Source: Cucumis sativus
Taxonomy: Eukaryota > Streptophyta > Magnoliopsida > Cucurbitales > Cucurbitaceae
Reading direction: 5' to 3'
Length of the DNA: 64,000 bases
Assembly (NCBI RefSeq): GCF_000004075.3
Contig: NC_026658.2
Coordinates: 2,356,001-2,420,000, forward strand
In this document: piece by piece, positions 26,254 through 60,756 of the stretch
Position numbering within the stretch: the first letter of the stretch is position 1
How the letters are laid out: each line of letters opens with the position of its first letter
Program-made: the position numbers and the translations under genes
Notes under the pieces: generated by a model
What the model saw: only the letters and a program-made list of their open reading frames with translations
What the model was told of the DNA's origin: nothing
Database searches by the model: none

Positions 26254-27065
26254 TCATGGTTGGTAGCCGGCGCGTCCAACCGCAGCCTTCTCTGCTGCAT
26301 GGGGTTTGTTAATATAGTTGCCACCTCGAGGCAGAGCCGAACTCAGAAAACGACTCCCATCCCTATTCTTCCCATCCATATTCATCGTCTCAACTGTTAC
26401 ACCATAAAACACACAAAACTCAAGAACAACTAAAGCTCTAATTTGATCATCTTTCTTTTCTTATAATGGAAATGTTACTTATATATATAAAATGTTAGTC
26501 ATGTAATTACATTTCTTTAATTTTTGGTTTTTTCCACCATTAATTTTGTGATTGGTTTTGAAATGACTTTGAAACATGTTGATAAACATTTCAAATTAAT
26601 TAATTTAATGATTGATTTTATATTTTTAAATGTCATAGTACCATTCTACATCGCAAAATCTCTATTAATTGAGATGTAAGAAATAGAGAGGGATTGGTCT
26701 TTTTTTTCCTCTCTGTCACCAACTTTCTCATCCTCGATCGTTAACTTATTTAGATTAATATTCCATTAATCTTTTAAAACATGAATGATATTCACATCCA
26801 TCAAAATTGATTTTAAATTTCTAAAACCAAGTTTTCAAAGTGATTTTGAAAATGAAAAAACTCACTCCCGAATCACTCCAAATGTAATGAATATTTGCAA
26901 TGAAGAGGTAATTAAAAATAAAGAGAGGAGAAGTAGAATGGCATATGGGGACTTACAATCTGCATGAAGTGAAGTAGAATGGAAGAGTACTCTCCCTGTT
27001 GCCATATTTGAAAGAAGAAGAAGAAGCATAACACTAAAAAATATGGACTCTCTCTTTAAACCCAT
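26254..27065 (-). CDS. Small secreted peptide precursor with internal RGGNY motif
   Basis: Two exons (26957-27065 and 26254-26393) joined through a phase-1 intron give 82 residues. Residues 1-24 form a signal peptide (MGLKRES, then FFSVMLLLLLSNMATG), followed by RVLFHST. Exon 2 encodes a polar linker, then SALPRGGNY and 19 further residues (INKPHAAEKAAVGRAGYQP). It shares signal peptide, arginine after the cleavage site, intron phase and GNY motif with the + strand genes to the right, and is the only intact member on -. The extension after GNY sets it apart. I recognise no named peptide family. The word GNYINKPH faintly recalls the C-terminal CAPE peptides of PR-1 proteins, but no CAP domain is present. 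The start is the ATG at 27065; the frame is open upstream but has no earlier ATG. Confidence 0.72.
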
Positions 27066-28300
27066 TGACCTCAAACTCTCTTTCTAAAAACCTTTTCTCT
27101 CTTTTCGATGAACTCTATGCCGTAGTTTCAAACTTTCATAGGTATATATATAGATTTAAAAACAATTCACAGTAAAAACACAAAAAGAAGTCGTAAAAGC
27201 ATCTTTTTAAAGATTGTGAAAGTTGTCTTCTTACTGTTTAATCTTTCAACTTCAAAGGAGGCTGTAACATATTAAGATTTTTTTTTTCTTTTGTTCTTTT
27301 TGGATAGATTGATTAGTTTTATTTTACAGTACAACATGTCTTACTAAAAAGTTTCATTCAGTACACTACAACTGTGAAGATGGTAAAAAGACTGAATAAC
27401 TTTCGTTTATTACCTAAAAAATTGTATCAATTATCATAATATTTGGTTAAGAGTTCAAAATGTAACTAAAAGTACTAGTGGATATATATTTTTGTTTTTG
27501 GTGGAGATATATATAAAATAATAATAATTAATGAACTTAGTGGACTTGGGAGTCAACCACTGAGGTTGAAATCAATTGTTCACCAAACCCACAATATGGC
27601 ATAATTTATGGGCAGCAAAGATTGACTGTTTGGGATGCCCATGCCCTACCAATAATATAGGTCATAGGATGATCCACATCTTAGAAAAATTACAATAATG
27701 TTTTGGATTTATGTTTTCTGATCCTACCATTCACATTTCATTTACAATCATTCGAGTTTTTTGTTTCTGTAAAAAGTTGCTAGATTTGAGAAACTGCTAA
27801 CTGCTACCTCTTTTCTCTTCAAATTACTTTTTTCCTTTTCAACATCTATCTCCACATATGTTCTTTCAAGAAAAATTAGGGTGTATATAGTTTGATACAT
27901 TTGGTTTAATGGCTGAAGACATGAAGGTTAAGAACTTTGAGATGAATTGATGGATTGATGACCAATGTTGCAAAACCATGCATAATGCTTCAGTAAATAA
28001 TGTTAAGAACTTCAAATATATAACCGGATAATAAAAACGAAACAAGAAAGAAATTATTAATAGAAATTGTTCACCAAACTCAATGTCTATTTCAAAAACG
28101 TTTCTTAATTTTTAGAAGCGAGTAACAGAATTAGTGGATTAAATAAGTTTGTTTTTCAAAACAATGAAAAGTAAAAAATTATTAATAGTAATATTTTCCC
28201 ATCATTTATTAATAGTAATATTTCCCCACACAACACGATCAATAATACACACACTTTCTTAACACCGAAAACAATTTTCTCTAGGACGGAGGATACTACA
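27066..28300. other. Spacer and promoter side of the - strand peptide gene
   Basis: It probably contains the promoter of the gene at 26.25-27.07 kb, with TATATATA-type sequence at 27144-27151. I see nothing else coding. Confidence 0.45.
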
Positions 28301-28795
28301 TCATGTCAAGTTTTCTAAGGCGTTATGGTTGGTAGCTTTGAGTATCTCAAAATTGCCACCTCGACCAGGTCGAGCTGTGAGTTCATAACTTTACTTTCCA
28401 CCATACTCTTTTCTCACCTATATCGATCTTTCCAAATGTGCAATAAAATATTGTTTTTTTTGTTAAATCATCAATCAACTCAAAACTCTAACATGTACAT
28501 AAATCAAAATAATAAATAAACAACAAACCGTACGCTTATAACTAATACTAATTCGAAAGGTTTTCTTTTTCTAAATTCTTAATATATATAAAATTAGGGC
28601 AAAATTTTGTTTCATATTTGTCCCTAAGAAAAAATTAATGAAAACTTTTTGGGTAGAATAAAGAGATATGTATAGGACTTAATTACAATGTGCATAAGGT
28701 AAAGTTATGCTTTGGGTGAGTCTCCCTTTTGCTGTATGAAATTAAAAGAGAAGAATCATAAAGCTTAAAATGGTGGACTCTTTCGTGAAACCCAT
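28301..28795 (-). pseudogene. Decayed paralogue of the - strand GNY peptide gene
   Basis: From 28795 the frame reads MGFTKESTILSFMILLF, clearly related to MGLKRESIFFSVMLLLL of the neighbour at 27.07 kb. It then meets a stop (TAA) inside the signal peptide; past the stop, the same frame continues with HTAKGRLTQS, matching MATGRVLFHS. Near 28301-28365 an exon-2 relic encodes RPGRGGNF and shares CTACCAACCAT(G/A)ACG with the end of the neighbour's exon 2, but in a shifted frame. The copy therefore looks non-functional: an early stop and a rearranged exon 2. It probably arose by tandem duplication on -. Confidence 0.6.
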
Positions 28796-29964
28796 TGAGT
28801 TAATTTCTCCTTTTTCTCTTTGGCGATGACTATTAATTTCATGATCATTTTATGGGTATATATTATATACAAGATCAAAGCAATTACGTAGATCTACAAT
28901 CAATAAATTAAAGAGACACACTTTTGGAAAAGAGAACGAATTTTTAATTAGTTTCATCTTTGAAACACTATATATATATATATACTAGATTTGAGTTTCA
29001 AATGATATAGTTTTCTTTTTTCTATACATCAATTTTTTTTTTATAATTAATTCTTTCTATATATTGATATAGAAGAATAAAAATATAACTTATTGATTCT
29101 CTTGAGAAATCAATCTTTTAGTTGGACTTTGAATTCATTAGCTTCCATTTGATCCTCTTTATAAATTTAGTAAACTATCAAAGTCATAATTGATATATCA
29201 ATCTATATCATTATATTGTGTCATGGTCTATTGATATATTTGTAAATTAATTTAAAATTATTGGAATGAAAAAAAAGAAATGTGAAAAATAGATAATGAG
29301 AAAACAATATATATATAGTTATATTATACCTAACTTAATTATCATTTAATCTTGTTTTATAATAACTACAAACTCACATGATTTTTTCCCCTCATTTAAG
29401 AAAGCTTAGTGGAAAGTTGTGGTGTATAGAAGAGGAAGTGGAACTTTAATTTGATGGCAAAAGAAAAATGGCCAAACAAATATATAATTAACTTCTTCTA
29501 TTGTCTCTATATCTTTTTATTTTTAGATTTAATTTTTTATATAGGCTACTTAATATAGTTGTAACAAATTAAACACTTCCATTATTTTACTTAATTTCCT
29601 ACCAATTAAGAAAATTATTTATAAATATTATAACACATGTATACGTACATACATACATATAGTTTATTCATTTTTAGTTATAGTGAGAGTGTGGGTTTGA
29701 AGTCAATCACTAGTACTTCTCCAGAAAATATCACTTATACAAAATGCCAAAAGTCCTTTATGCAGCCAACATAGACTTTAGAGAGGATGCCTTTATATAT
29801 ATATTTTGGGTCGAAGAAACAAACGGATATACATTTCATTTAAACATTTTTTTCAATTAAGAAACGAGTGAACTGTAATAGGATAGGTTATATGTATGAA
29901 CATTTAATCGTTGTTCAACATATATATATTTTTTCGACGAGCTCTTCCCATGATTATGCCAACG
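28796..29964. other. AT-rich spacer between the - and + peptide genes
   Basis: No gene is seen. The stretch includes TATATA runs near 28973-28984 and 29312-29319 and a CATACATA-type run near 29644-29660. Confidence 0.5.
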
Positions 29965-30111
29965 ATGAACAAGACATCAAACAGATTAATCATAAAACTT
30001 CTTTTAATCGTTTGCTTAATTTCTTTACTTCCCAAGTCTTCAATTTGTTATAACTTTAATTTATTTAGAACAATAATAGAGAACAATTTTTTTGGGTTAT
30101 CATTATATTAA
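29965..30111 (+). CDS. Possible orphan signal-peptide ORF
   Basis: A 48-residue open frame starts MNKTSNRLIIKLLLIVCLIS and has a hydrophobic core that would serve as a signal peptide, ending near SSICYN. It lies just upstream of the first + strand GNY gene and could be a decayed first exon of another family member. No GNY motif or matching second exon is found after it. It may equally be chance in AT-rich DNA. Confidence 0.22.
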   Translation: MNKTSNRLIIKLLLIVCLISLLPKSSICYNFNLFRTIIENNFFGLSLY

Positions 30112-30480
30112 TTATAGAATACATCATTATTATATTAAATGATGATTAAGTTTGAAATCATATCCCCTATTTTGTGAAGAAAATAGATATTTCTAAAATT
30201 TCAGTCAACTATCTCTGACCATCATTTTGGCAGCTATTATAATTAATGGTCAATTCAAACCCCATTTTCAAGATTTGAACAAGCTCTCAAAAAGTTGAAT
30301 ATTAGACATAAAACCAAAAATAAAATTCTAGAAGACAAAGATTGATAAACCTAATTGGTCAACACCAAAGAAAACTGATATCTAATCATATATATCCTCA
30401 AGTTTTAGGCTATTAATATGATCTTGAAATTGCTTTTTCTAATTACAAATATATATATTGGAGAAGATATCATAATAAAA

Positions 30481-30845
30481 ATGGCTTCAAACAAGGACTC
30501 GATGTTGTTTAAGGCTTTATTTGTTGTCATTCTCATAATTACTTCTTCCCAATATGTAGCCTTTGGAAGATTGCATATTTCTGATGCTATTCCTCATTAT
30601 CGATCTGGTAAGAGTCCCAACATTATTCAACATTTATTTGATCTCAAAAACACCTTCTTATGGAGAAATAAAATTGTTATAATTTTTTAGTGTAGTTCCA
30701 TGTTCTCATAGTTGTAAATATGACTGCAGATCATAAAGATGATAGGGAAAAGGAGAAGACTATTTCAAGAGTTGAACATCTTTCCCAAACTGATACCCCA
30801 AGAAAGGGTAACTATGGAGGACGTGGAGAAGGGCCAACAAGTTAA
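30481..30845 (+). CDS. Small secreted peptide precursor, PRKGNYGG tail
   Basis: Two exons (30481-30607, 30730-30845) with a phase-1 intron give 80 residues. The signal peptide is MASNKDSMLFKALFVVILII to about residue 29, then FGRLHISD. Exon 2 is charged (DHKDDREKEK), followed by DTPRKGNYGGRGEGPTS to the stop, so GNY is followed by a ten-residue Gly-rich extension. The MAS start is chosen by agreement with the other members; an in-frame ATG at 30418 would place residues ahead of the signal peptide. The GGT-AAC codons of the motif form a GTAAC word that could act as a splice donor, and a duplicate of exon 2 lies 1.2 kb downstream (31.9 kb). The function is unknown. Confidence 0.72.
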
Positions 30846-31910
30846 TTAAGACAGCTACTAAATTCATGGTTTATTTTGGGGAAAATTATATATATGTTGT
30901 CCAAAAAGTGTCCATGCTACTGTCATGATCATTATATAATTTATAGATTTTTCTTTGTTGTATTATTGGTTTATTTTGTATTTGTTTTAGGCGTGCTATG
31001 TCATATTGTGCTCACTCTAAGTTTAAACTTTCACTTGTGTACCTTCAATCAAAGTTAGATATTAATTTAAAGTTCATATGATTCAACCAGGCTTCCAAAA
31101 GAAATTAGTTTGTTAGAATGAATCTTTTTTTATTTGTATTGATTATAGTATATAGTAAGAACAGTATATCTTGTATTTGGTCATTTGATACTTTCTCTTG
31201 GAAAGTAAATTTGTCCCGTAGCTTGTTCTTGATTGTAGATTTATCTTGAGAGCTTTTTAATTAGATCGTTGTTGAAGCTATAATTCTTGAGTTTTGGAAG
31301 TCATTTGATCTTTGACGAAGTACTTTTGGTAAAGTGTATTTGATTCATCTCAACAGTTTTGAGAGATGCTTTGCTTTTTGGATTATCTATCCTAGAATAT
31401 CTTGCAAGAACGTTTTTGAGTTTTTAACTTCAAGAGCTTTAGAAGGGTCTACTTAATTACTGGAAACTAAGTCTTATGAGCTAATTTAGTTTTCAAATTT
31501 CTAGAGAACATGTACTTAGAGCTTGAGAACTTTAGAGTTTGAGAGCTTTTGGTTGAAGGCTTTAGAGAAAATTATTACAAATGTTTGATTTTCAGAACAT
31601 GAGAGCTTTAGAGTTCTGAAAAAACTGGAGAGCTCTTTGAGAAATTCAAATTGATATTTTGAAAATTGGAGATCTATCTCATATATGTATGCCTTTCAAA
31701 ATTGGACTTTTGAAGAAATGAAACACTTCAAAATTTATGGCACCAACCTACTTATATATTTTCAATTGGCCACATTATTATATCAAATTAATCACAAAAT
31801 TAACTGTCTTTATTTATAGACTTAAACGAGGAATACACTTAAAAAAATTCAAAATAATATCTCCTAAAAATAATTTAATTACTTTAATAGTTTATAACTT
31901 AAATTTATCC
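30846..31910. other. Spacer with degenerate GAGAGCTTT repeats
   Basis: The 3' flank of the preceding gene is followed by about 400 bases (31240-31650) in which words such as GAGAGCTTTT, GAGCTTGAGAACTTTAGAG and TTGAGAGCTTT recur irregularly. This looks like a decayed tandem repeat. No coding sequence is seen. Confidence 0.45.
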
Positions 31911-31914
31911 GGAG

Positions 31915-32170
31915 ATAATGGCATAGGAAAAAGGAGAAGGATTCAAGAGTTGAATATGATCCCCAAACTGATGTCCCAAGAAGGGGTCATTATATGGAGG
32001 AAGTGGAGGGGGGCCATCAAGTTTAATTAAGGCATGCATGAGCTAGTAAATTTTCAAGTTTTATTTTATTTTGGTGTAAAAATATGTTGCCCAAAATGTG
32101 TGGCTATGCATGCTACTCTGATCTTTTGACAATTCATAGATTTCTTTTATGTGTATTGATAATCAAACAC
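31915..32170 (+). pseudogene. Duplicated exon 2 of the PRKGNY gene
   Basis: The stretch aligns along about 250 bases with 30740-30990: shared words include AAAGGAGAAG, TTCAAGAGTTGAA, CCCAAACTGAT, CCAAGAA(A/G)GGGT and the flank TTTATTTTGG. In the matching frame it reads RVEYDPQTDVPRRGHYMEEVE and stops near 32026, so GNY has become GHY. I found no signal-peptide exon next to it. It is either a stranded pseudo-exon or an alternative last exon of the gene at 30.5 kb. Confidence 0.55.
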
Positions 32171-33490: not shown

Positions 33491-33541
33491 CACGGCTACA
33501 AGTTTGAATTTTGACTCGTCTCTACTTAACCTATCGTCTTG

Positions 33542-33652
33542 TATATAAATACAAAGCAGCTTAACACACTAACAACAAATAAAGCTCAAAGAGTGATTAC
33601 ATCTTCTTCATTACAAATCATTCAGCTCTTTCTCTCTCATCTCGACTCTCTG
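33542..33652 (+). promoter_or_regulatory. Stranded promoter and leader of the GNY gene at 35.8 kb
   Basis: TATATAAATA at 33542-33551 and the following AACACACTAACAACAAATAA and GATTACATCTTCTT words match the region just upstream of the paralogue at 38.67 kb (TATA at 38554). In that paralogue this leader runs straight into the start codon. Here it is cut by a solo LTR 17 bases or fewer from the ATG. Confidence 0.72.
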
Positions 33653-35755
33653 TGTAACGACCCAACTTTTCTAAGTAAGTCGAGATCGTTAATTTTTAAC
33701 AAAATAAAAGACTTTGATTAATGTAAAACAAAACATAAGCAATTTTAAAAAAAAACATCTTCAAGTCAGGCCTGATTTTTAAACATTCAAGAAAACATAA
33801 AATAATACTGTTTGCAACAAACGTTTGTAAACTAAATTTCAAATCAATCTTAATTAAGCGGAAGCAATTACACGTTTCCTATGGCATCACGCTTCCTTCC
33901 TACCCCTCGCCGGTTTGCTGCCTTTATCACCTTTGCCTGAAAATTAAACATAAGAAGGGTGAGTATTTTAAATACTCAGTAAGAGACCCTCTACTGGTCT
34001 CGTCAGGGGAAAATAAATTGTTAAAGTTCTATTGGGACACCCTGTACAGTCGCAGTCTTGTGATCCCGTAGGATACACATTTCAGTCTAACGCCCCGAAG
34101 TACGTACATATCAGTCTGACGCCCCGAGGGACGTACATATCAGTCTAACGCCCCGAGGGACGTACATATCAGTCTAACGCCCGAGGGACGTTCATATCAG
34201 TCTAGTGTTCTGCAGAAACACATATCAGTCAAATGCTCCCGAAGGTGCAAAATAAATTGGTGATCCCGTGGGACACCTACAAGGTAAACATCCCAATACA
34301 ACCTAACAATTTATCCCCTCATTCCATTCAACCATCTTTCAGTTACTTCAAATCACAAAGTCCTTTCTTTCAACATCCTAACAGTCAACTTATTTTACTA
34401 CAATCATCTGTCTGTCAATAATATGCTAATACATCAGTCAATCCACTATACAGTCAAGTCAATACACCCCTCAGTTCACCAGCACAAACCACAGTTCAGT
34501 ATAATCCACATCCAACCGAAACAAATTCACTAGTTCACATCCAATCTTTATACAGCACAATCTATTAATATCATCATGTACACATAAGCATAATTTCAGT
34601 CATTCACATGTATACTTTCGGCAATCCACATCAATTCACACATCAATGTATATATATATGTTTCCAGTCAAATACAACATACACTAAACATTTAGTCTGC
34701 AATCAAACATATACATCTTAATCATCATCCATACAGTCCAACACAACTCAAAAACTTTAGGTGAGTCCAGTAGAAAACCCCTTACCTTCAAATTTGTTAA
34801 GCTCCTTAACCACGTTGAAGTCTATGAAGAACGAACCTAAACATTAAGACAATTTCTCAATAATTCCCTTCAACGCATCAGTCATTTAAATTCAACCCAA
34901 TGTGAATCTTTTTGCAACTTACCCAAATCTTCGCGAAAGAAATCGAGCAGTGGCTTTGCGAAGAGATGACGTGCGACGGAGAGACCGTATACAGATGGTC
35001 GGAGAGTCGCGCGGCAGTGCAGACAACGGAGGAGAATGAATCGACGGCGGCTGGGCTGAAAACAGAGGAGAAAGGAGAGGGGAGACAGCCGGCGGTTACA
35101 GGTTCACGCGGCGGCCTTGCTTCGCGAACAGAGATGGCGGCCGACGGATGCAGCGACGTCCGGCTGGGTTTGGACGGAACGGAGAGGAAAAGAGAAGATG
35201 GAGATGGCCGACGGCGGTTGCTGTGCGAACGGATGGGGCGGCTGGCTGCGGCGGAAAGAAAATGGAAGTCGCGACGCACGGCGGAAGAAGGAAATAGGGG
35301 TGGCGGTTGCTGGGCTACGACGCAGATCTGGACCGGGCAGCGGCGGAAGAGCAACGACGCGGTCCTGCTTCGCGAACGGAGATGGAGACGGCAGATCGGG
35401 CGTTCGGCTTCAGTAGGGGAGACGCGACGGTGAGGTTGGGTCTGGAAGGAGCGGAGAGGAGAAGAAAAGATGGAGATGATCGGCGGCGGTTGCTGCGCGA
35501 ACGGAGAGAAGAGAGGGATGGGCGTACGGGAGGAAGAAGAAAGTAAATTTTTTTTCATTTTCTTTTCTTTTATTTAATAAAATGTAAAATATATATAATA
35601 ATAAAAATATAATTAAATACATATATATATATTTAATTATATTAATACATTTTCAAATCTTCTTTCTCCCCTTCAACATATTTTAAAAAAAAAAATCTTG
35701 AACAAATCGAAATAATTCTCTCAAAATAATTTTCCTTCAAGTTTGGGGCGTTACA
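33653..35755. mobile_element. Solo LTR (LTR retrotransposon fossil), about 2.1 kb
   Basis: The element starts TGTAACGACCCAAC and ends GTTTGGGGCGTTACA, i.e. TG...CA ends with short inverted termini. It is flanked by a 5-base target duplication CTCTG (33648-33652 and 35756-35760). No internal protein-coding region or second LTR is seen, so it looks like a solo LTR. It contains an array of about six 29-base units (34082-34230) and a GC-rich block (34910-35540) unlike the surrounding DNA. TGTAACGCCC-type ends suggest a Ty3-Gypsy-type element, but the family is not proven. The insertion is inside the 5' leader of a peptide gene. Intact target duplication and intact ends suggest a fairly recent insertion. 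Confidence 0.8.
34082..34232. repeat. 29-base minisatellite inside the LTR
   Basis: The unit CAGTCTAACGCCCCGAGGGA plus CGTACATAT is repeated about four times cleanly, with more diverged copies at both sides. It is part of the LTR fossil. Confidence 0.85.
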
Positions 35756-35768
35756 CTCTGCTTCTGAA

Positions 35769-36330
35769 ATGGCTTCCAAGAGAGTTTCAATGATTTTGAA
35801 TGTGGTGTTCTTCATTATTATGCTTTTAATTTCATCTAATAACAATTATAATGTTTCTGCAAGAAAATTTCTTGATGTTAATACCCCTCTTGATGATGCC
35901 TTCAACCTTCAAATGGATGCATCTTCATTATTCTGTGAGTTTTCTTAACTTTTTTTTTTCTTCTCAATCTTAAGATGTTCTTGTTTTAGTTTGTTTAAAT
36001 GAGTTATTATTTCGTTTTCTATTTTATAATTAGGGTTATAAACACTATTCTTCAATATCTAATTCTGCCTAGTATTGTTTTTATCTAATTTTTAACCTAT
36101 TTTTACGAGTGTGTTTTCAAAATGATCCAAACCAAAGTGCTAGCTAGTAAGTTACGTTATAATTATAATTATAGGGTTTGAAAAATGATGTTAATTTGAA
36201 TCTGTAATTTGATTTACTTTTATGGCTTTAATTTGTTTCAGATAAAATGAAGGGGGAGCTACAAAGGAGATTCGAGGATTTATTAAAAGCAACCACTGAT
36301 AATGATATTCCTCGAGGTGGAAACTACTAA
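35769..36330 (+). CDS. Small secreted peptide precursor ending RGGNY (LTR-disrupted leader)
   Basis: Two exons (35769-35934, 36242-36330), phase-1 intron, 84 residues. Signal peptide MASKRVSMILNVVFFIIMLL to about residue 30, then SARKFLDVN. Exon 2 has a charged, probably helical stretch (MKGELQRRFEDLLKATTD) and ends DNDIPRGGNY at the stop. It is nearly identical to the gene at 38.67 kb, so a recent tandem duplicate. The coding frame, donor (GTGAGT) and acceptor are intact, but a solo LTR of 2.1 kb separates the start codon from the ancestral TATA box and leader. It is therefore either silent, driven from the LTR, or spliced around it. The function is unknown. Confidence 0.78.
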
Positions 36331-38553
36331 TTAAAATGGAAAATACAAAAAGTATATAGCAATTGATCGTTAATATCTTTTCATATCTTTTGTATTTGAA
36401 ATTGCAGCATATTAATGAAATAACTTATGCTACTTTCTTGAGATGAAACTTTTTGAACTTTTTTTTTTTTCTCCTTTAAACATCTCTTTTATGGGTTAAC
36501 GTTTGTTTGGATTGATTTTTCAAATATTTTAAACAATATTTTTTAAGTGATAAAGAGGTGTGTTTAATCACTTAGTTTAGAAGTTTAATCTAAATAAAAA
36601 CCATTTGATTGCTCGAAAAAAAGCTTGAAGAATACACGAGGTAATCCTATGACTAAACTACAACTTTGTTTGGAAAGATATTCATATCATCGTCTTTCAT
36701 TGATCTCCAACTAGAGGATGTCAACTTAGTTGGGATGCTTGAGTGCTCCATTTATTTGTTGGAATATTCGGGTGCTTCTTTTAATCCATCATCGTATCTT
36801 TTTATAAAAATGACATAATTAATGTAAATAAAGTAAAGGTATCATTCTTCTATAGAAAATCGTAACTCTAAAATTTTATAAATAAATTAAAAATGAATAG
36901 GAGGTTTGAATTGATCTTGAAGTGTGAGAGATTGAAGGATCAAACCTCTAATATCAAAGTCGATAGTACATGATTTAATTGGAAATTTTATTTATGAAAA
37001 TATATACAATGAAGAGTTTGATTTATTCAAAGATATTCCATCTCAAAATCAATTAATAATAAATGTTTACCGTGAGTAATTTTTTATTAAACCTTAATTA
37101 AGAATTATCTCAAATTGTGTATCGGATCCATTGGTTAAGAAGGGTACATAGAACCTAATAATTTCATCAAAGAGAGAAAATTAAATGGCTCAACTATTCA
37201 TATATTGTCGGATATGTTTGTCTTTTTAGTCTACATATTCTTTATATATTATAAAGAACTATGTTATTCAAATGCATGTGTAAGTTCATAGGTTTTGTTT
37301 AATCAAACCATTATTTCATATATAAAAGACTACAATAATGTCACTTTAGTTGACATATATATTTTCATTGATTAATTATAGATATAATAATTAGGTTAAT
37401 ACTCAATTCTAATCCGATATACTCTTGACTTCTACGTATCATGATTATTTGTATAGTGATTTAGTCTCTTAACACTTTTCAAATATCATAAAAAACAAAG
37501 AAAATTTTACCTAATTAATTAAACAATCTTGACTATCTAAACCAAAGTTAATAAGGATTGGACCAGAGTTTTATCTTGGAGTTGAGGTGCACATGCAAAT
37601 CAACAAACTATACGTCTAATTATAAGTTTCAATTATAATAGACAATTTTTAAAAATAGCAAACTAAATTAAAATATTTATCAAGCTATAACAATTTTTTT
37701 AGATTGTATCAATAATAACGAGTGATATCCTAGTAATATATTTTAAGTAATTTTTAAAATACAAAGGTAAACTTATAGATCAACATTCTCTTCTACTTTC
37801 AGTTTTCAGGAAGTAAAATTTCTCAAATCATTTTTCACCACCGGCCAATTTCTAACTTTGCTTCTTCTATTTATAAACAACTCAGAAGACAAGATAGATT
37901 TTGATGATGGTTGAGTTCTTCAATAGAATTTTGGCGAGTTAACTATTTTTCTATGTTAATTTTGGTTACAAAGAGTTCGTGTTCTTCCACAAAATTGAGG
38001 CACATTTAAGATTAAAGAGTTTATATAGTAAGACCCGATGTATGGTTCTACAGACAAAAATTTGCTAGTTGCAAAATATTTAATTTTTGGGTAAGTAAGG
38101 ATTACTGGATGGCTCTAATATAATTATCCAAGCTATTTACAACATAGAATTTAGATATATAAATAGAACTTGTGAATAAATTTATCATATTTATTAACTA
38201 GAAAATATTCATCATCTAATGGACTAAAAGTAAAACATGATTACAAAATCGATGGACATACAATGTTTAAATAAAACCGACTAAATCTGTTTAAGATTAT
38301 AACGAAATTAATTATGAATAATCAGAAATTTTGACATGGCTCTGTTTAGTTTTTGTAAATTGCAATATTATTGCATAACAATTAAAAATTAAATGTTTTA
38401 GATGGATTGTTGACTGACCCTTGTCTTTTGTTGTATTTGGGAAAAGAAAATAATTTTAAAAAAGGATGAATTTTAAAGTTGAATAGTCTCACCATTCACA
38501 TAATTATTTATCAAAATGAAGAGCATGCAATAAGATTAATATTTGTTTTTATG
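36331..38553. other. Spacer between the twin RGGNY genes
   Basis: No gene is seen. It contains one copy (about 37185-37375) of a segment that recurs at 40.26-40.48 and 41.97-42.17 kb, and a GATGTCAACTTAGTTGGGATG word near 36717 echoed near 40589. These mark past tandem duplication of the locus. Confidence 0.5.
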
Positions 38554-38563
38554 TATATAAATA
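38554..38563 (+). promoter_or_regulatory. TATA box of the RGGNY gene
   Basis: TATATAAATA lies 111 bases upstream of the start codon, followed by a CT-rich leader (CTCTCTCTCTCTC). It is conserved with the stranded copy at 33542. Confidence 0.65.
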
Positions 38564-38673
38564 CATATTAAGCAACTTTTGACACACTAACAACAAATAA
38601 AGCTCAAAGAGCGATTACATCTTCTTGGTTACAAATCATTAAGCTCTCTCTCTCTCATCTTTCTGCTTCTGAA

Positions 38674-39369
38674 ATGGCTTCCAACAGGGTTTCGATGATT
38701 TTGTATGTGCTGTTCTTCATTATTATGCTTTCAATTTCATCTAATAATAATTATAATGCTTCTGCAAGAAAATTTCTTGACGTTAATTTCCCTCTTCTTG
38801 ACGATGCCTTCGACCTTCAAATGGGTGCATCTTCATTATTTTGTAAGTCGTCTCTCACCTTCTTTCTGCTTCTTTCACTTCTTTTCAAAAACTAAGTTTA
38901 TAAATGAGAAATTTTTAAATATAGCATAGTAAAATTTAGATTCTATTCATGATGATAGACATTAGAATCGAAAAGTTTGACCATGTTTTTTTTTTTTTGT
39001 ATATTTCAATAATTTTTCTTTTCAATACTTGGTTTTGCTTAATATTATTACTTTTTTATCTTCTAATTCTTACAAATGCTTTCAAAATAATCCAGACCAA
39101 GTTTTGCCTAATAGTTCGAGTAAAATAAAGAAAAAGAAGCATAATTATTTAAAGAAAACACGAAACTAAAAAATGAAATCATGAACAGACGAGATGTTAA
39201 TATAGATTGTTTATGATTTTATTATTATTTGTAATCATTGAATGTATAATTTGATTTACTTTTATGGTTTTGTTTTTCAGATAAATTGGAAGGAGAGCTA
39301 CAAAAGAGATTCGAGGATTTATTAAAAACAACCACGGATAATGATATTCCTCGTGGTGGAAACTATTAA
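38674..39369 (+). CDS. Small secreted peptide precursor ending RGGNY
   Basis: Two exons (38674-38842, 39281-39369), phase-1 intron, 85 residues. Signal peptide MASNRVSMILYVLFFIIMLS to about residue 30, then SARKFLDVNFPLLDDAFDLQ. Exon 2 carries KLEGELQKRFEDLLKTTTD and ends DNDIPRGGNY. It pairs with the gene at 35.77 kb (differing at a handful of residues) and keeps an uninterrupted promoter: TATA at 38554 and a CT-rich leader. No cysteines occur in the mature part, so it is not a cysteine-rich defensin-type peptide. A short C-terminal peptide released by proteolysis is the natural guess, by analogy with CLE or CEP precursors, but the motif fits neither. Confidence 0.8.
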
Positions 39370-43398: not shown

Positions 43399-43912
43399 AT
43401 GGGTTCAATTAAAGTCTTACATATTTTGGTTGCACTTTTACTTATTGCCCTTATATTGGCTTCTAATGTTTCTTGTTCCAGGAAATTGCTTGATGTAGCT
43501 CGTAAGTACTCAATTTAAATCCATTTGTTTTTCTCTTCATTCTATTTTGTGTTGATTTGATCCCTAACTCTCGATATGTATATATATATTGAATCCGTTC
43601 CTTTTTAATGAATGCAATTTTTCCAATCTAATCGAAATATCTTGTATAGGCTATCATGTTTTAATCCCATCTTGACACTGTGTAGTTATATAATTTTGCA
43701 CTTTGTGTGTATGTTTATTTATTACGATCTTACTTGAGCCTGATTTACATTGTGTCCTTATATTCTAAAGTTTTTATTTATTCATTTATTCATCTTATTC
43801 AGAAGCACCAAGTTATGGACCAGCAATGCTGATCCAGCCCGCTGATGCTCCCTTTGATGGGAACTACTCTTATGGACCAACCATGAAGCCAGCAGCGGCT
43901 GCAGCCAGCTGA
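43399..43912 (+). CDS. Small secreted peptide precursor with SYGP repeats and DGNY
   Basis: Two exons (43399-43501, 43803-43912), phase-1 intron, 70 residues. Signal peptide MGSIKVLHILVALLLIALIL to about residue 27, then SRKLLDVA as in its neighbours. Exon 2 reads APSYGPAMLIQPADAPFDGN, then YSYGPTMKPAAAAAS, so the GNY motif is internal and a second SYGP(A/T)M unit follows. The DNA after the stop continues the repeat (CAGCTGATACTTCCTTTGG, GGGAATTACTC), showing that exon 2 is about 1.7 copies of a 60-base unit whose second copy is now out of frame. The function is unknown; it could release one or two Tyr-containing peptides. Confidence 0.72.
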
Positions 43913-45644
43913 TACTTCCTTTGGTGTGGGAATTACTCTTAATAAATGGTCAAGGATGGAACTTAGTAAAGAAATATATATTTGGTCTTACATTTGAAAA
44001 TTTATATTAAGAAGTTTGAAATTGTACGTCGTCAATACTTCAATATGGAATTGTGTGTTGTGTTTGTGTTTTCTTTAAATAGATACTTCAACAATAACGA
44101 AAATGAGAATATATTACAATCTATTCGTGAGAATATATAATATACAGAGAAATTTTACTATATCTTTTAAATGTTTTGATTTATTTTGTTATATTTGAAA
44201 ATAGATCTAATAAAAATGCAAATAAATGAGAAACAATCGTACTAGCTAGAAAAGAGCCTAAAGATATACAATAGACCTAAGGCGCGAACTTCCCAACTTC
44301 CATAATTGTCAATTGTTATGGTTTGAGCTTGAAAAGAAATTGTGACTTATTATTATTAGGTTGAACTAATATTATTATTAATTTTTCTTTTTGTATATTT
44401 AATTTTTTTTAAAAAATTTAAATGACAAAACAATTAAAATATTAATAAATATAAAAAGGTTTTATAGTCGTCTATAAGTTGAAATATTAATAGATATCTA
44501 TTAGTGATGTTGCGTTGTATTAGTAAATATAATTGGAAGCATCCCTTCAATTTTAGTTCATATACTTTCAATCAATCTTAAATTTAATTAGTTTATGAAA
44601 ATTGACTAAACAATTATCGTTATCACTATCAATATCATGGAAATAAACAATATGGAAAAATATATTTTCAAAACTTAGGGTGGAAAAGCCAAAGTTCATA
44701 TGGTATAAGATTTTAGGCTATCTTTTTTTTTTTAAAAAAATTAATTTACAAGACAAGAGGAATCAAATGGTACAACAACACCTCTCAACTAGGTATTCCG
44801 ATTCATTAACTAAATTAAACCTTGCTAATTAGGTATTTAGATCCATCAATTTTGTATTTTTTTGATATTACGTGATCTCGACGTATAATCCTCATACATG
44901 ATTGTGAAATATACTTTCAATTATTTTCGTCCTTTTGTGTTTCATTTTATGGCAACAGCCTTGAAGAAAGTTTCACAATCTGATATTATTAGTGTGAAAA
45001 AGAAGAAAGAAAGAAGGTATGAAAAGCAACCCCCTTTACTTATTAATTTGCTATTATTTTCCTCATTATTATTGTACTTTAATTCAAAATGGCAATAAAT
45101 GGTCAAAGTTGTAGGGATATCATAAGTCAATAACTCATAGTATTTTCCTTTGTTGAACCACTAGTACAACATGGGAAACTGTTTCCTATTTCTTACGTAC
45201 AAATTTGAGATTAGGGTTTATTTCAAATCTTCCCCTCATGTGTCCATACTTAGACCCACTAAAACATTTATATTTCCAATTCTTTTTAAAAAATAATTTC
45301 TTCTCACTCCCAAAAATTAAGCAATTTTCCATATACAAAATTAATTTTAATTTTACACTACTTCTAATAGGATCAAGTTAATTGTATTAGAAGATATATC
45401 ACACAAAAAAAATTACAAATATAACAAAATTTATATACTAACAATATAGTGTATAGTTGATCAATCGTTTAATTAATTAATATCATATTGGAATGATGAT
45501 GTTTGAATAAAATGTTTAAATTGAAAAGCCAACAGATGGGGTCAACGCAGTATATCATGTGAACTAAAACTCTACACTACACCTTTACTTCAGCTTTTTT
45601 TTCCCCTCAATTCTTTCAAAGCACCTAACGCGGTTTAGTACTCA
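43913..45644. other. Spacer, no gene seen
   Basis: AT-rich. Near 44460-44530 is a fragment with the CTATTAGTGATG word of the MITE-like family. Short open frames on both strands at 44898-45130 have no recognisable sequence. Confidence 0.45.
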
Positions 45645-45650
45645 TATAAA
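45645..45650 (+). promoter_or_regulatory. TATA box of the WDGNF peptide gene
   Basis: CATATAAATGG lies about 120 bases before the start codon at 45768. Confidence 0.5.
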
Positions 45651-45767: not shown

Positions 45768-46379
45768 ATGGCTTCAATTATTTGGAAACTCTTCTTGATC
45801 ATCACACTCATCTTAGCTTCAAATTATGTTCATGCAAGGAGATCTCCTTCCTTCTATATTCATCGTAAGCTTTTCCCCCTCTTAATTTCGCTTCAATTGT
45901 GCTCGATATCATGCCTTTTAAGTTTACTAGTAACCAACATGATCTTTTTTTGTATCTAGAGATTTAAAGTTTGATTCCAATCTTCATGGTTGTTGTACTA
46001 ATGAGAGATAAAAGAAGAACACGGAATGATAAAATGATTTTGATTATTAGAGAGTTGATTGTGGTTAAAATTTATTATTTCTTATGGTTATTATAATTAC
46101 ATTATCTTTCCAAATGCTGCAGGTATGGAGTATGCTGAGCTAAATGTTGATACAATTGCTCAACCACCTAATACTCAAAATGATGAAGATGGTAGGGTTC
46201 TAAATAATAGGAAACTACTTTTGAAATTAAGAATATTATATATATATATGTGAAAATAATTAACTTTTCATCATTTTCTAACTGTAGGTATGAAGAACAA
46301 TACAGAAACAAACAATACAACTACTGCTGCTCCACCACCAGCCAAACATGAAGATGGTGTGTGGGATGGGAACTTTTGA
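45768..46379 (+). CDS. Small secreted peptide precursor ending WDGNF, three exons
   Basis: Exons 45768-45864, 46123-46191 and 46288-46379, both introns phase 1, give 85 residues. Signal peptide MASIIWKLFLIITLILASNY to about residue 25 (VHA), then RRSPSF. Exon 2 encodes MEYAELNVDTIAQPPNTQND plus ED; exon 3 encodes MKNNTETNNTTTAAPPPAKH, then EDGVWDGNF at the stop. Exons 2 and 3 are duplicates: both start with GTATG(G/A)AG at the acceptor, and both carry a Thr/Pro-rich stretch and an (N/H)-(D)-EDG end. Two N-x-T sequons lie in exon 3. The tail is closest to the gene at 59.9 kb (PWSGNF). The function is unknown. Confidence 0.75.
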
Positions 46380-49084: not shown

Positions 49085-49573
49085 ATGGCTTCTGTTGTTT
49101 GGAAGAAACTCTTGTCAATTGTTAGACTCATTGTTCCTTCCAAAGCAAATGCAAAGAGATTGAGTTCCACAAACGATATTGATGGTAGGTCGTAATTTCT
49201 TTGAAACTTTGTTTAAATATTATTCATATCATTTTAAATAGGTATGCTTTTGTACCGTTCGTTCATGTTTGTTTCTCACACACTCAATAATAAAAGTGTG
49301 GTTTTTTTTCAAAAGAATATTTTAACTAAAAATATTGAAATAACAAACATTCATGTATATATTTAGTATATATTAAAGTTGGAGAGTTTAAACTTGAATC
49401 CTTTTGTTCTTAAGTATATAGAGGTGCATGCTAGTATATATGGAGCATTTAATTTATTTTGATTTTGGCTTTCTTTCATTTTCTAAATGTGTATAGGTAT
49501 GAAGAAAAAGAAGTTTCCTCCTCGTCCATTTGATGAAGAAAGTTCTGCTGCTCCTCGCAATGGGAACTATTGA
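49085..49573 (+). CDS. Small peptide precursor ending RNGNY, weak signal peptide
   Basis: Two exons (49085-49184, 49497-49573), phase-1 intron, 58 residues: the shortest member. The N-terminus MASVVWKKLLSIVRLIVPSK aligns with the 45.77 kb protein (MASIIWKLFLIITLILASNY), but Lys and Arg now break the hydrophobic core, so secretion is doubtful. Then NAKRLSSTND. Exon 2 starts GMKKKKFPPRPFDEE and ends SSAAPRNGNY. Exon 2 begins at the same GTATGAAG acceptor word as exon 3 of the 45.77 kb gene. It could be a sublineage losing the signal peptide, or one tolerating a weak one. An in-frame ATG upstream (48941) adds unlike sequence. Confidence 0.66.
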
Positions 49574-51270: not shown

Positions 51271-52119
51271 ATGGTGCAGAAGAAGATTGCATTTTATTGG
51301 GAAATAGTTATGTTGATTATTGTTATGCTTTTATTGGCTTCTTCAACTGCATCAAGAGATCTAACAAATCCCAAACTTTGTAAGATATCATATTACTCTT
51401 CTAACTTATATTTATCACTTTATTTCTTCATTCTTTCTTCTTTTTTTTTCCCTCAAAGTTTGACAGTGTTAAATGATGATAATTTAAGCTCCCTTTGATA
51501 TGTATCAGACAACAAAGTTAGGAGACTGTCATTTGATGATTCTCATGATGGTAATTACGGTATACAAAAGAGGATGATTATATAATAATTATGTACCCAT
51601 ATTATGTATATGTTCATGTATTTTCATTTTCTTGTTTCTTGTTTTTCATATGTTTATGTTTTTCACATGTGCTTAAAACAATGATATATTATGTGTAATA
51701 ATCTTCTTTTCAATGCAATATTATATTGTAAAAATACTTGTGATCATTTTCATCAATGAAGCATCATCGAAGTTTCTCATAAAAAATAAAATTGAATTAG
51801 ATCATTAGGGTTAAAGTCTAGAATCGTGCAACGTAATATTTAATATATAAAATAATTAAAGTAGATTTAGTGATCACAAGTATATAGTTTTTTCTTTATC
51901 ATCTCTACACATTACATTAAACAGTATGGTTTATGCCTTTTTATTGTTTGGTTAGTCAGTAACGTAAGTTAATATTGTTAATTTTCATTAACAGAGACGA
52001 TCAAGAATGAGAAAACGAGTACTACAAATAATGTTCATGTTGAAAGTCCTCCACAACCATGCAATGGCCAACGTAGCAGACGACCCAAACGGGACACCCC
52101 TTGGTGTGGCAACTATTGA
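51271..52119 (+). CDS. Small secreted peptide precursor with two possible GNY ends
   Basis: Exon 1 (51271-51379) gives MVQKKIAFYWEIVMLIIVML and LLASSTA as signal peptide, then SRDLTNPKL. Exon 2 starts 51509 (YNKVRRLSFDDSHDG). If exon 2 is read through, it ends at 51586 as SHDGNYGIQKRMII (61 residues). If the GGTAATTAC that encodes GNY is instead used as a donor (51551), exon 3 at 51995-52119 is joined in frame and the protein is 91 residues ending KRDTPWCGNY. The exon-3 tail (HVESPPQPCN...) resembles the 59.9 kb protein. Two gene products, or an exon 3 left from a neighbouring dead gene, are both possible. Coordinates cover the longer form. Function unknown. Confidence 0.65.
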
Positions 52120-53853
52120 AAGAAACTTATTTTTATACAAAGAGTGAAAACTGAAGAAGTACTGCATTTACATATTTCTTTTAGATATTTTTAAGTTGAA
52201 AGAGATCTGCTCAATTTAAAATAAATTGATAAATTCAGTTTAAAGATAGGAACCCATTTGAATTAATATTAATATGCTTTAAATGTGTTTACAATTATTT
52301 TTGTATATGCAGAAATGAGAAACAGAATGGTATTTCTGATCTTTTGAATTTATTGTTCTTAAGTCAATTTCTTGTTTGTTAAAAGAAAATTGTTTTAAAT
52401 AATAAAACTTTTTAAAAATATTCACAGAGATATAGCAAAATATTAATTAAAAAAAAAAAAAAGATGCTTCATTCCCTTAAATCATTCTAAATAGTTTAGA
52501 CATTAATGTTATGACATTACTTTTACTAAACTATATCGTTTCTTAATGATCTTTATTTTGACTTCAAGTAAACATTAATTACTTTCGAATATTGTTTTCT
52601 TTTTTCCAATTCCTATCAGGAATAATCAATCAACTTCTAATTCTTCACTAACCCACATAAAATTATTATTATTATTATTTCTATAATAATAGAATATCTT
52701 CTATTTATTTAATATATAAAATTTTTACAACTTTCCTTCTCGAATCACCTAAAATATCTCAAATCAATACATTAGATAACTATGTCTCTAACGTATATGT
52801 GTTACGATTCTCTTTCTATCTTAACCAATTTGAAACTTTGTTTGTACATCCAGTTCACTGTTTCTAAAAAAACTTAACCTACTACTAGGTTACCTAAAAT
52901 TTAATTATTATATCAATACTATGATACATTTTGTTTGTTTATGAATTTAAAATTATCGACGAGTGAAAAAATATTAATAAAAGAAAGAAACGAGGTTACA
53001 CAAAATTGAAATACAAACATCCTTCGTTTCCACATACCATATATTACTAAATCATAAAGTAAGATTTGTATAAGAGTGGATAAACCTCACTTAGGAAACC
53101 TACCTAAATAATTCCATTAAAAAAAAAATTGAGACTCACATTTTTTCCCATATAGTATATTAATATCATTTTAATTAAATTTTCTTTCAAAAATTAAATA
53201 TAGCTAAATATTTATTTATTTATTTTTGGTAAAAGATGAAATTTTGTTATATTTTGTAAATATTATTTATTATAATAAATATAACTAAAATTACGCTAAA
53301 TATAATAAAGAACAACCATCAAAATTAAAAGATAGCCTATAATTAAAAACTTGTTTGGAAGATCCCTTTTGATGCCTAAAAATATAACGTATTGTGTTAG
53401 TACAAAAAAACAAGTTTTATGTAGAATGATTTGTAAACTCTCTAGCAGCGAATGACGCAGTTCTGTATTTTATAAAACATTTTCTTTAATAAAATTGTTT
53501 TTTCTCTACTATATAGCTGTAACTAATTATATTATTCGTCAACCACGTATATGTATGAGTCGATTTTTGATTTTTAAGCTTTAAAGAAAAAGAAAAAGAA
53601 TGAAAAATATGGATGATATGGGTGTTAGTGGTGGGTGGTGGGTATATCATTTTGGAAATTTCAATATTCAACTTCCACTCTAGTCAACTCTTGAGTGGCC
53701 AAACTTTTTTTACTTAAAATCAAACACACTGCACAACTATGATAACATTTTAATATATATCCTTACAAAACACAACAACCAAAAGCAACAACAAATTCTT
53801 CTACAAAATAATATGTAATTCTTTGTCCTCCCTTGTTTTGCTTTCTCCAAAAA
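52120..53853. other. Spacer: left copy of a tandem segmental duplication
   Basis: No gene is seen. From about 52460 the sequence is repeated, with gaps, from about 54440: shared words include ATCATTCTAAATAGTTTAGA, CTTAATGATCTTTATTTTGA and CAACTTCTAATTCTTCAC. The match resumes at 53340-53840 versus 55570-56220. Confidence 0.6.
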
Positions 53854-54149
53854 AGGCTTCTAATTAAGATATCTATCATTTAGCAATTGGTTGTGGTTTT
53901 GATGGGTATTTTAAGTTATAGTATTGAAGGCAAGGAATTGGGTTTATACTCCTAAAACTGGTTGTACTATCATCCACTTTAAATATGTTTCTATCTACTT
54001 GTTTGTATAATCTGTTTGTTTTTTCTTACATTTTTCAGACTAGGATGTCATGTGAATCAAAAGCATATATAAAAAAGGTTGCTAATAAACCCATTCCAAG
54101 GAGTGATAATAACCTAAGGATATATAAACTTGGGGATGGAAATCACTAA
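53854..54149 (+). pseudogene. Dead copy of the 56.2 kb GNY peptide gene
   Basis: It aligns across leader, exon 1 and exon 2 with the gene at 56242-57029. The start ATG is lost (AAAAAAGGCTTCT versus AAAATGGCTTCT), TAA and TAG stops interrupt the signal peptide, the intron donor GT is altered and the intron is only about 75 bases. Exon 2 keeps SIYKK-like and GDGNH codons before a stop at 54147-54149, followed by the same AATCAAGTTGGAAAAATAAT flank. It is a tandem duplicate that has decayed. Confidence 0.82.
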
Positions 54150-56241
54150 TCAAGTTGGAAAAATAATTAAAATACATTGGACGACTATGTCAAATTTTCA
54201 TAACATTTTACTTTATATAATACAATAAACAAGCTTTATTAACCAAAATGGCATGTAGTTTCAATCTATTATTCTATAGATTCAAAATCATTGTGTCATT
54301 TAATATATATATATATATGATTATTTTCTGTCCGATTAATATATTTTCACTTGTTCATAGTATATAGATTATAATCGAATTTTATTATATTTATAAATAT
54401 TTTAAATAATTTTAATGAGTATCTATAAGAAAAATAATAATAAAGATGGATGCTTCTTTCTTTGGATCATTCTAAATAGTTTAGAGATGACATTACTTTC
54501 ATCATCGCTAATTGCATATATAATAATAAACTATATGTTGTTTCTTAATGATCTTTATTTTGACTTCAAGTAAACGTACTTAGTTTATTTTCCTATATTG
54601 TTTTCATTTTTCAATCCCTTTAAGGAATCAATCAACTTCTAATTCTTCACCAACCCACGTAGAATTATTATTATTTTAAATATGAGGATTTCTTTGACCC
54701 GCTATATTTTATAAATATTTTGCTAATTAATAAGCTAAAAAAATTATGTTAAATAAAAAATACAGCCAAACACAAACTCCAAACATAATATACAATGTCA
54801 TATAATAATAAATATACATATAACTATATATTGAAGAAAAGAGAGTACATATATAGGAAACACAAACATACGACATAATATACAATGTCATGATAATAAA
54901 TATACATATTTCAAAATTACTTATCATCATAACAATACACACAGAAAATACGTCATACTGAAATAAAAAAGTTATCTCCAATATTGCACAATAGTTAATT
55001 ACAAGATAATGAATTAAACAGTTTATCTCATCTCCAAATTTTGCAACATAATATGATAGAAAACAAAAGCATCGAGTATTTTGAAAATTAAGTAATTTTT
55101 AGAAAGTAATATATGACAAAAAGAAAATAACTTTACAAAAGAACTTTGAATATCCAAAATTGAAGGTACATACGACCTATAACAATTGAAATAGTAAAAT
55201 CTCAAATGAAAACAAATAAAAAGTAGAAGAAAAATTGGAAAGGGAAATCGGTGGAATATGAAATAAAGAACCGAAAAGAAATGGAAGAATACAATTGTAT
55301 ATTGAAAACGTAAACAAAATGGGAGATGAACGTAATTAGTTATCTAATAATATTCCCACAAATATGTGTTTATCTTTTTCAAGAAGATGCACAACACAAC
55401 TTTGGATGTGATAATCCAATTTAAGACTATTGTATGTGTTTTTTTATATCATATGATAGAATATATAGTAGTATATCAACCATTAATAAATAGATTATGA
55501 TAATTTAGTCATTTAGAATGATATTAAAAAATTGTAAAGTTTTTTTTCTTGGTTAAGCTCCTCTTAGATAGAATAAAAGTGATAATTAAAAACGTGTTTG
55601 AACAAGGTCGTTTTGGATGCTTAAAAATCCATTGTGCTTTTAGTACAATAAAAGTGATTTTTTAAATACTCATGGCTTTAATACCTTAAATTTGCTATTT
55701 AGTTACAAACAAAACCAATTACAAATATTTTTAAACTTTGTAATCCTAGTGGTGCAACTTTGTGTTTTGAAAACATTTTTCTAATAAAATTATTTTTCAT
55801 ACATAGTTTATAGACGTAGTTAACATACTATCTTTGTCAATTTAGTAACACTCACCCTGCTACAAATAACTTTAAGTTTTTTTAAAAATATACCACAGAT
55901 GTTTAGCTCTAGAAAAAAAAATATGTTTTTGTAAAGGAATATGGTATTGGTCTTAGTGGTGGGTGGTGGGTGCCATTTTGGACATTTCTAGTCAAACTCC
56001 ACTAGGAGTTTTCATTTTTGAGTAGCCAAACTTTTTTCTTTCAAATCATACACTACACAACTATGGCTATATTTTATTATGTAATAAGAAGCTGCTGAGA
56101 AATAATCTCTTCAAATTTTTGAAAGGGAAAAATATATCAAATCCCTATTTATATCCTTACAAAACACAGCAAGAAATGCAATAAAAAAAACTTCTTGCTC
56201 TACAAAAATTATAATAAGGTTTTTTTCTTTGTCCAAAAAAA
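54150..56241. other. Right copy of the duplicated spacer and promoter
   Basis: It carries the second copy of the 52.46-53.84 kb spacer (54440-54680 and 55570-56220) with about 900 extra bases between (54690-55560). In that extra part, short words such as ACACAAAC and ACAATGTCAT repeat near 54773-54890. TGGTGGGTGGTGGG near 55958 matches 53629. No gene. Confidence 0.55.
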
Positions 56242-57029
56242 ATGGCTTCTAAGATATCTCTCATTTGGCAACTGGTTGTGGTTTTAATGGCTATTTTAAG
56301 TTGTAGTGTTGCAGCAAGGCATCGGGTTTCTACACCTCAAACTGCTTGTAAGTGAATCCTAAACCCATTTCTTTTGGATAAATATGGATAGTATAAAGTT
56401 TTTGCATTCTTAAACATACTTAGTTTAATTTTGTTTTCTATTATGTATATACATGTGTCTGTGTAGTTCCTTCCAAAACATGATGATGAAACTGCAACGA
56501 TATGAAAATGATTAACATGATGAAATTACAAACACATCATATAAAAAAAGATATCTTGTCTTTGCTTATTCTTGGGTGGGGAATGTTTTTTCAGATTATG
56601 TATATGTAATCTAACAATTCGATATAGAACTCAGATGCTCATATACAAAGGTTGGTCCTGGTCGTAGCTAGGTTTAGGTTATTGGTCGCTCTATTTGATC
56701 CTTTCAAGTTGATCATATAGTTAATCAATTCAAATTCTTTGTTCAGTCCAACAAATTAATATCATTTCACAGTCTTTTCTTTTTATATGATTCATCTGAA
56801 TTGCAGCTAAACATAAACAATAGAGTTTATATAATCATTTGCAACCATTTTAGACTATTTTTCTACAAAGTAATGGATCATACTATCTACTTTATTATGT
56901 TGCAATCTAATTATCTGTTTTATTTTTTTCTTATCTTTTACAGACAAGGACGCAGTGGGAATCAAAAGCATAAAGAAGGTTTTTAAGCCCGTTCCAAAGA
57001 AAGATAAACCTAGGGGTGGAAATTACTAA
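56242..57029 (+). CDS. Small secreted peptide precursor ending RGGNY, Lys-rich tail
   Basis: Two exons (56242-56347, 56944-57029), phase-1 intron, 63 residues. Signal peptide MASKISLIWQLVVVLMAILS and CSVA, then ARHRVSTPQTA. Exon 2 reads YKDAVGIKSIKKVFKPVPKK and ends DKPRGGNY. The mature peptide is strongly basic, unlike the acidic tails of the 45.77 and 59.9 kb genes. Intact frame, donor GTAAGT and acceptor. It is the living twin of the pseudogene at 53.85 kb. The function is unknown; a Pro-rich basic tail with an invariant end would suit a processed signalling peptide or an antimicrobial peptide. Confidence 0.78.
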
Positions 57030-59846: not shown

Positions 59847-59856
59847 TATATATAAG
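59847..59856 (+). promoter_or_regulatory. TATA box of the PWSGNF gene
   Basis: TATATATAAG lies only 36-45 bases before the start codon, implying a very short 5' leader if it is the TATA box used. Confidence 0.5.
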
Positions 59857-59891
59857 CCATTGAAATCAAGCTTGGTGCTCCAAACACAACT

Positions 59892-60756
59892 ATGGCTTCC
59901 AATAATGTTCTATGCAAACTAATAATGCTCATCTTAGTTACCATCATCTTTGCCTCCAATAATGTTGCCACAAGGAACTTGCTTTCTACGCCTCATCTTG
60001 CTCGTATGTTACTCTCTTGTATTACATTATATTGATTGAATCTTGATGTTTAAATTGGATATCTTTTAAGTCACTTTTAAAGTGTAATTAAAAGTCATTC
60101 TAAATATATAGGGTTTTTTCTTTTTATATATATATATATATATATTGGTGGTTGTATTATGGTTTTTTATCTTTGAATTTTGCACCTCATTTAAAAATAT
60201 AAATATACGTTAGACCACATTGAATGTTTATATAAGCACTACACAAAATTTGGAATATAATGCACATTTACGTATATAGAATCTAGTAATCAATTCATAT
60301 TGAAAATGAGAACAAAATACTTTAAAAGATGATAACTATTTTCATTTTTTTTTAGTTTTTCATATATTGTATGGAAACATTTGAATACTTAATTAAACTT
60401 CAAAAGAAAAAAACAACTATCATTTTAAGTTAATTTTTCTTGTTTATGGCTTTTAAAAGGTTGTTTTCTCCATTTAGAATTTGGCTTAAAATGCAAAAAT
60501 GTACCCTTTTACTTAAGATCTAATACAAATTATAATAAGAAAACGAAATAACAATAGACTTAATTTTTGAAAAGTAAAATCTAAAGATAAAAGGGTTACT
60601 AAACAAAACCACAATAATTAAATAAGAAATTGTGGTTGATTTTGAACAGATGTGAAGCATGAGGAGATGAACAGTACAAGTGTTCCTGCACCCAATCCTC
60701 CACAATCACCACTAGACAATGGACCATGGGATGACCCTTGGAGTGGAAACTTTTGA
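59892..60756 (+). CDS. Small secreted peptide precursor ending PWSGNF
   Basis: Two exons (59892-60003, 60650-60756), phase-1 intron of 646 bases, 72 residues. Signal peptide MASNNVLCKLIMLILVTIIF to about residue 28 (NNVA), then TRNLLSTPHLA. Exon 2 reads HVKHEEMNSTSVPAPNPPQS and ends PLDNGPWDDPWSGNF. The tail is Pro/Trp-rich and acidic, with one N-S-T sequon. The two PW(D/S) units (GPWD, DPWSGNF) look like a short internal repeat. Its closest relatives here are the 45.77 kb gene and exon 3 of the 51.3 kb gene. It is the last family member on the right. Confidence 0.78.

Follow-up and report, generated by a model that had tools for sequence, protein, structure and literature searches.

The described signals closest to the genes considered here are two soybean defence peptides, GmPep914 (DHPRGGNY) and GmPep890 (DLPRGGNY) (PMC7730307). 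Review extracts present them as C-terminal cleavage products that alkalinise the cell medium and induce defence genes along with their own precursors, and an extract of PMC4621407 gives the soybean precursor as 52 amino acids (aa) long. A second system of comparable layout is the Arabidopsis PROSCOOP family, extracts of which describe 14 genes of two or three exons, all with a signal peptide and a short conserved C-terminal motif, in two tandem clusters, the largest spanning 37 kb with transposon remains (PMC6382344). Here we describe a tandem cluster of small genes in cucumber (Cucumis sativus), lying mostly within a window of 64,000 nucleotides (C4:2356001-2420000, contig NC_026658.2) in a genome of 226.6 Mb in 88 contigs; positions without a contig prefix are window coordinates. 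With a probability of about 0.85, and judging from sequence, we read it as a cluster of secreted GmPep914-type phytocytokine precursors, in which R-type genes close to the soybean ligand stand beside a diverged W-type.

At this locus, conservation covers a unit of eight residues, D-x-P-[R/W/H/F]-x-G-N-[Y/F]. An initial annotation, made from the letters alone, had taken GN(Y/F) as the defining tail; that tail is present, but what is conserved is the full octapeptide. We aligned 14 tails on GN, representing the 13 genes of the cluster with g51 counted twice, and found that position -5 is D and position -3 is P in 12 tails each, and that position -2 is R or W in 11, while in the ten columns left of the D the top residue reached at most 4/14. 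The D and P counts were reached in 0 of 5000 shuffles of all 14 tails, and again in 0 of 5000 when recent duplicates were left out (10 tails; D 8, P 8). The edges of this block match those of the soybean peptide, the left edge falling at its first residue and the right edge at its end.

Two features were used to test membership of the GmPep914 family. A C-terminal DxPRGGNY is present in g35, g38 and g56 (3/13 genes), where it is identical to the soybean peptide at 7/8 residues and shares its C-terminal position, and a small precursor carrying a C-terminal peptide is found as well; leaderlessness, in our view, characterises the soybean gene models and does not define the family. The remaining ten genes keep parts of this R-type tail and, on sequence grounds, are filed as paralogues rather than as proven family members; among them are the W-type genes g45, g51 and g59 and the flank copies g65 and g69. 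That the cluster is a separate family, unrelated to GmPep914, which converged on PRGGNY by chance, is in our view quite improbable. It would fit precursors of 58-91 aa with a leader set against a shorter soybean precursor described as leaderless, and no Pfam family joins the two sets, the comparison with soybean being made at the level of the octapeptides; yet it is at odds with the 7/8 identity at the same C-terminal position, and with paralogues whose conserved block keeps the exact soybean register. The families considered in the initial annotation did not include GmPep914/GmPep890, and its claims of an undescribed family, with a tail matching no named one, give way to the DHPRGGNY/DLPRGGNY match, an outcome of the kind that it had itself named as refuting. 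Its broader picture, a lineage expansion of phytocytokine-like precursors in which a free spacer separates the leader from a fixed tail, agrees well with the sequence.

The genes are homologous to one another and concentrated at one locus. Between 26,254 and 60,756 we modelled ten genes that look intact and recognised three dead copies (Table 1); except for g26, a minus-strand gene, the genes are encoded on the plus strand. These include all ten loci that had been listed, then stated as nine intact, whereas the earlier count of at least two dead copies becomes three in the window (28.3, 31.9 and 53.8-54.3 kb). Three more intact-looking genes lie in the right flank at 65.4, 69.3 and 73.1 kb (g65, g69, g73), 1.4-9.4 kb past the window end, and the cluster extends to ~73.4 kb with 13 intact-looking genes in total, all with open frames. 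The 12 introns of the window genes and the three in the right flank are all GT-AG and phase 1; exon models were picked by hand for open frames, so that this phase is consistent but not independent evidence. GN[Y/F] forms the extreme C-terminus in 7/10 window genes, with g51 in its three-exon form, and in 7/13 when the right flank is included. In g26, g30 and g43 the protein runs on beyond it by 19, 9 and 14 residues.

An automatic finder, designed after the genes were known, required a leader-like exon, a phase-1 donor, an acceptor and GN[Y/F] no more than 25 codons before a stop. Of the 10 loci that it returned across 224 kb, nine belonged to the ten window genes and one was g73 of the right flank; the 80 kb left of the window gave none, nor did the reversed 224 kb, and 10 shuffled windows gave one in total. 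With GN[Y/F] forced to the very end we obtained 5 loci (controls 0), and an earlier version with other settings gave 6, including one whose junction holds a stop (controls 0). The finder missed g49, whose leader hydrophobicity was 1.92 against a threshold of 2.0, as well as g65 and g69, which lack the Y/F.

At genome scale, P-[R/S]-G-G-N-Y with TRR (stop or Trp) directly after it had 3 matches in 226.6 Mb, all within the window (control 0). DxPxxGN[Y/F] matched 53 times against 60 in the control, which is chance level overall, and 8 of the 53 fell on one strand inside 43 kb at the cluster, 7 of those 8 in the window (Poisson 6e-22, for a region chosen afterwards). P-[R/S]-x-GN[Y/F] with TRR gave 15 matches against 49 in the control, 4 of them in the cluster, and at the other 11 loci the finder gave no gene; W-x-GN[Y/F] with TRR gave 65 against 42, with 3 in the cluster. 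Three of the 45 DxPxxGN[Y/F] matches outside the cluster were inspected. C4:7561096, 5.2 Mb away, holds a g30 copy that lacks its 5' part and has the tail DTPENGNY (L049, ~1125-1460). At C7:2217720 (L048, C7:2217600-2219200) the match, DTPGCGNY, is internal to a small leader-bearing protein rich in glycine and Cys and is probably due to chance, and C1:1571461 has stops immediately upstream. Protein searches of the genome, with seven of the ten window genes (g35, g59, g56, g45, g43, g30 and g26) as queries, recovered at least the copies in the cluster and the g30 fragment, plus one match at E=0.99. None of the ten window proteins (g51 in its three-exon form) and neither of the two right-flank proteins g65 and g73 passed Pfam curated cut-offs; matches far under them (SLATT_5, GRP, conotoxin, others) were weak and were taken as chance.

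A leader-like, hydrophobic first exon is present in 13/13 gene models, weakest in g49. Small residues at -3/-1 followed by R/K, a loose ad hoc rule, occur in 12/13 genes, with g65 failing. A profile built from the ten window leader exons recovered the 13 genes, 10 of which were its training rows, and nothing else to E 0.5 in 224 kb, and its best match in reversed sequence had E 0.017. In leave-one-out profiles, the fairer test, 8/10 leaders outranked every non-family segment among 7083. These features suggest that the cluster precursors are secreted.

Selection on the tail could be followed in recent duplicates. Between g35 and g38 the octapeptide shows 2 synonymous and 0 nonsynonymous changes, with a whole-gene ratio of nonsynonymous to synonymous change (dN/dS) of 0.28. 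Compared with g59, the octapeptides of g65 and g69 carry 3.5 nonsynonymous to 1.5 synonymous and 4 to 1 changes, respectively, all small counts.

Several observations weigh against reading the cluster as GmPep914-type precursors throughout. An extract of PMC6547358 describes soybean precursors with no obvious signal sequence and an unclear release route, and an extract of a 2026 review terms the soybean peptides lineage-specific. Within the cluster, g45 has V for P, and g26 and g49 have A for D. The Y/F has been lost in g65 (ending GNV) and g69 (GNI then RV), which shows that constraint on the tail does not hold throughout. Trimming would be needed in g26, g30, g43, g73 and two-exon g51, which carry 6-19 residues beyond GNY, and the leave-one-out leader profiles failed for g49 (rank 183) and g26 (not found). 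The lost Y/F, the residues beyond GNY in several genes and the weak g49 leader core also speak for a narrower account, in which only the DxPRGGNY genes g35, g38 and g56 yield working GmPep914 ligands and the others persist by chance as copies in decay or divergence. The three dead copies in the window point the same way, as do exon-2 dN/dS values of 2.1 for g59/g69 and 0.9 for g65/g69 on few sites, though g59/g65 gives 0.34. We regard this account as unlikely, although a serious contender: D and P are each kept in 12/14 tails despite unrelated spacers, all 13 genes retain open frames, and g51 and g73 still share the exon-2 DGNY, with a synonymous change, although the sequence after it has diverged.

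If the cluster does encode GmPep914-type precursors, exon 1 would supply a signal peptide cleaved directly before the conserved Arg/Lys, followed by an unconstrained spacer. An extracellular protease would then cut before the Asp of the octapeptide and free it, and a surface receptor would perceive it, eliciting defence responses and the precursors' own expression, the latter as reported in soybean. The ligands from g35, g38 and g56 would each be one residue off the soybean ligands, while g45, g51, g59, g65 and g69 would yield diverged ones. By analogy, the cluster may play the role that GmPep914/890 play in soybean. Direct antimicrobial peptide precursors, rather than signal precursors, would also be small, leader-bearing, clustered and fast-diverging, and a rough estimate of net charge from residue 23 onwards spans -5 to +9. 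We nevertheless consider that account very improbable indeed, as conservation takes the form of a short fixed C-terminal block without conserved cysteines, and as, according to an extract of PMC7225342, soybean Pep914 in vitro did not inhibit a fungus but, if anything, promoted it. The same source records no protection of Arabidopsis against a fungus by GmPep914/890.

A leader on its own exon here makes a missed leader exon in the soybean models a testable idea. We put forward, as a doubtful proposal, that the soybean precursors only seem leaderless, their leader exon lying beyond a phase-1 intron and having been missed, and that W-type DxPWxGN[Y/F] tails (g51, g59, and g45 with V for P) form a second class of ligands, which arose from the GmPep914 type within the cluster and has its own or an altered receptor.

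The cluster and its surroundings hold further features (Table 1). The exon-2 DGNY of g51 overlaps a possible splice donor, cut between GATG and GTAATTAC, use of which leads to the third exon and its alternative ending. In g43, exon 2 is followed after the stop by a second, frame-shifted copy of the peptide repeat, the other frame of which reads WCGNYS. For the dead copy of g30, no leader exon was found, including by the leader profile. The insertion upstream of g35 is probably a solo long terminal repeat; it ends 13 bp before the start codon and has left the old g35 5' leader stranded at 33540-33642, where it matches 38552-38660. Beyond the last window gene lie pieces of an ankyrin-repeat gene with apparently broken frames; by eye they resemble plant NPR proteins, and the single piece submitted to Pfam matched ankyrin and nothing else. 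A leucine-rich repeat (LRR) receptor kinase (L020/L021) and the last gene of the cluster are ~37 kb apart. As the kinase appears TDR/PXY-like by eye, we did not pair it with the cluster as its receptor.

Table 1. Features of the cucumber cluster and its flanks, in window coordinates.
Feature	Position	Strand	Exons or structure	Length	Tail or remark
g26	26254..27065	-	27065-26957, 26393-26254; GT-AG, phase 1	82 aa	ALPRGGNY + 19 residues
Dead copy related to g26	28301..28795	-	in-frame stop within leader exon		last exon PGRGGNF
g30	30481..30845	+	30481-30607, 30730-30845	80 aa	DTPRKGNY then GGRGEGPTS (9 residues)
Dead copy of g30	31923..32157	+	exon 2 and 3' part		DNA 71% identical
Insertion	33653..35755		TG...CA ends; flanking direct repeat CTCTG	2103 bp	between g35 5' leader and start codon
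g35	35769..36330	+	35769-35934, 36242-36330	84 aa	C-terminus DIPRGGNY
g38	38674..39369	+	38674-38842, 39281-39369	85 aa	C-terminus DIPRGGNY
g43	43399..43912	+	43399-43501, 43803-43912	70 aa	DAPFDGNY + 14 residues
g43 second repeat copy	43859-43945		frame-shifted		
g45	45768..46379	+	45768-45864, 46123-46191, 46288-46379	85 aa	C-terminus DGVWDGNF
g49	49085..49573	+	49085-49184, 49497-49573	58 aa	C-terminus AAPRNGNY; leader core weak
g51, three-exon form	51271..52119	+	51271-51379, 51509-51550, 51995-52119	91 aa	ends DTPWCGNY
g51, two-exon form	stop at 51585	+		61 aa	DDSHDGNY + 8 residues
Dead copy of g56	53753..54265	+	leader frame broken		
g56	56242..57029	+	56242-56347, 56944-57029	63 aa	C-terminus DKPRGGNY
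g59	59892..60756	+	59892-60003, 60650-60756	72 aa	C-terminus DDPWSGNF
Ankyrin-repeat gene pieces	62553-64251, on to ~64349	-			
g65, near copy of g59	65412-66055 (outside window)				DGPWGGNV
g69, near copy of g59	69262-69997 (outside window)				DEPWDGNI then RV
LRR receptor kinase	110728-115401	-			

The signal itself is known, having first been purified from soybean, and PRGGNY genes in a cucurbit have probably been reported before: the abstract of a 2011 Plant Physiology paper reportedly gives homologues in Fabales and Cucurbitales only. Our literature searches yielded no paper that connects Pep914 with cucurbits, joint mentions (also of GmPep914 with Cucumis sativus) occurring in unrelated places, and these searches did not show the cluster expansion, the W-type tails or the own-exon leader in print. 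What goes beyond the print consulted is the multiplication, the W-type and the leader on its own exon. The 13 leader-bearing genes would provide naturally occurring ligand variants with which to seek the GmPep914/890 receptor, given as unknown in review extracts, and a leader would offer a plain route of release where that of soybean is described as unclear (PMC6547358).

Compared with GmPROPEP914/GmPROPEP890, the cucumber genes share the C-terminal DxPRGGNY (g35, g38, g56), the small precursor and a block register common to the cucumber paralogues, but they differ from the soybean system, for which extracts give 52-aa precursors lacking an obvious signal sequence and two homologous peptides, in having a leader exon, 13 intact-looking genes and W-, H- and F-type tails. 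In layout the cluster resembles Arabidopsis PROSCOOP, with which it shares exon number, signal peptides, tandem clustering and a short C-terminal motif. The SCOOP C-terminal motif is Ser-x-Ser, whereas the octapeptide has no conserved Ser in the 14 cucumber tails, and common descent is not indicated. The cluster would offer an example of ligands diversifying locally in an arrangement similar to that seen for the SCOOPs.

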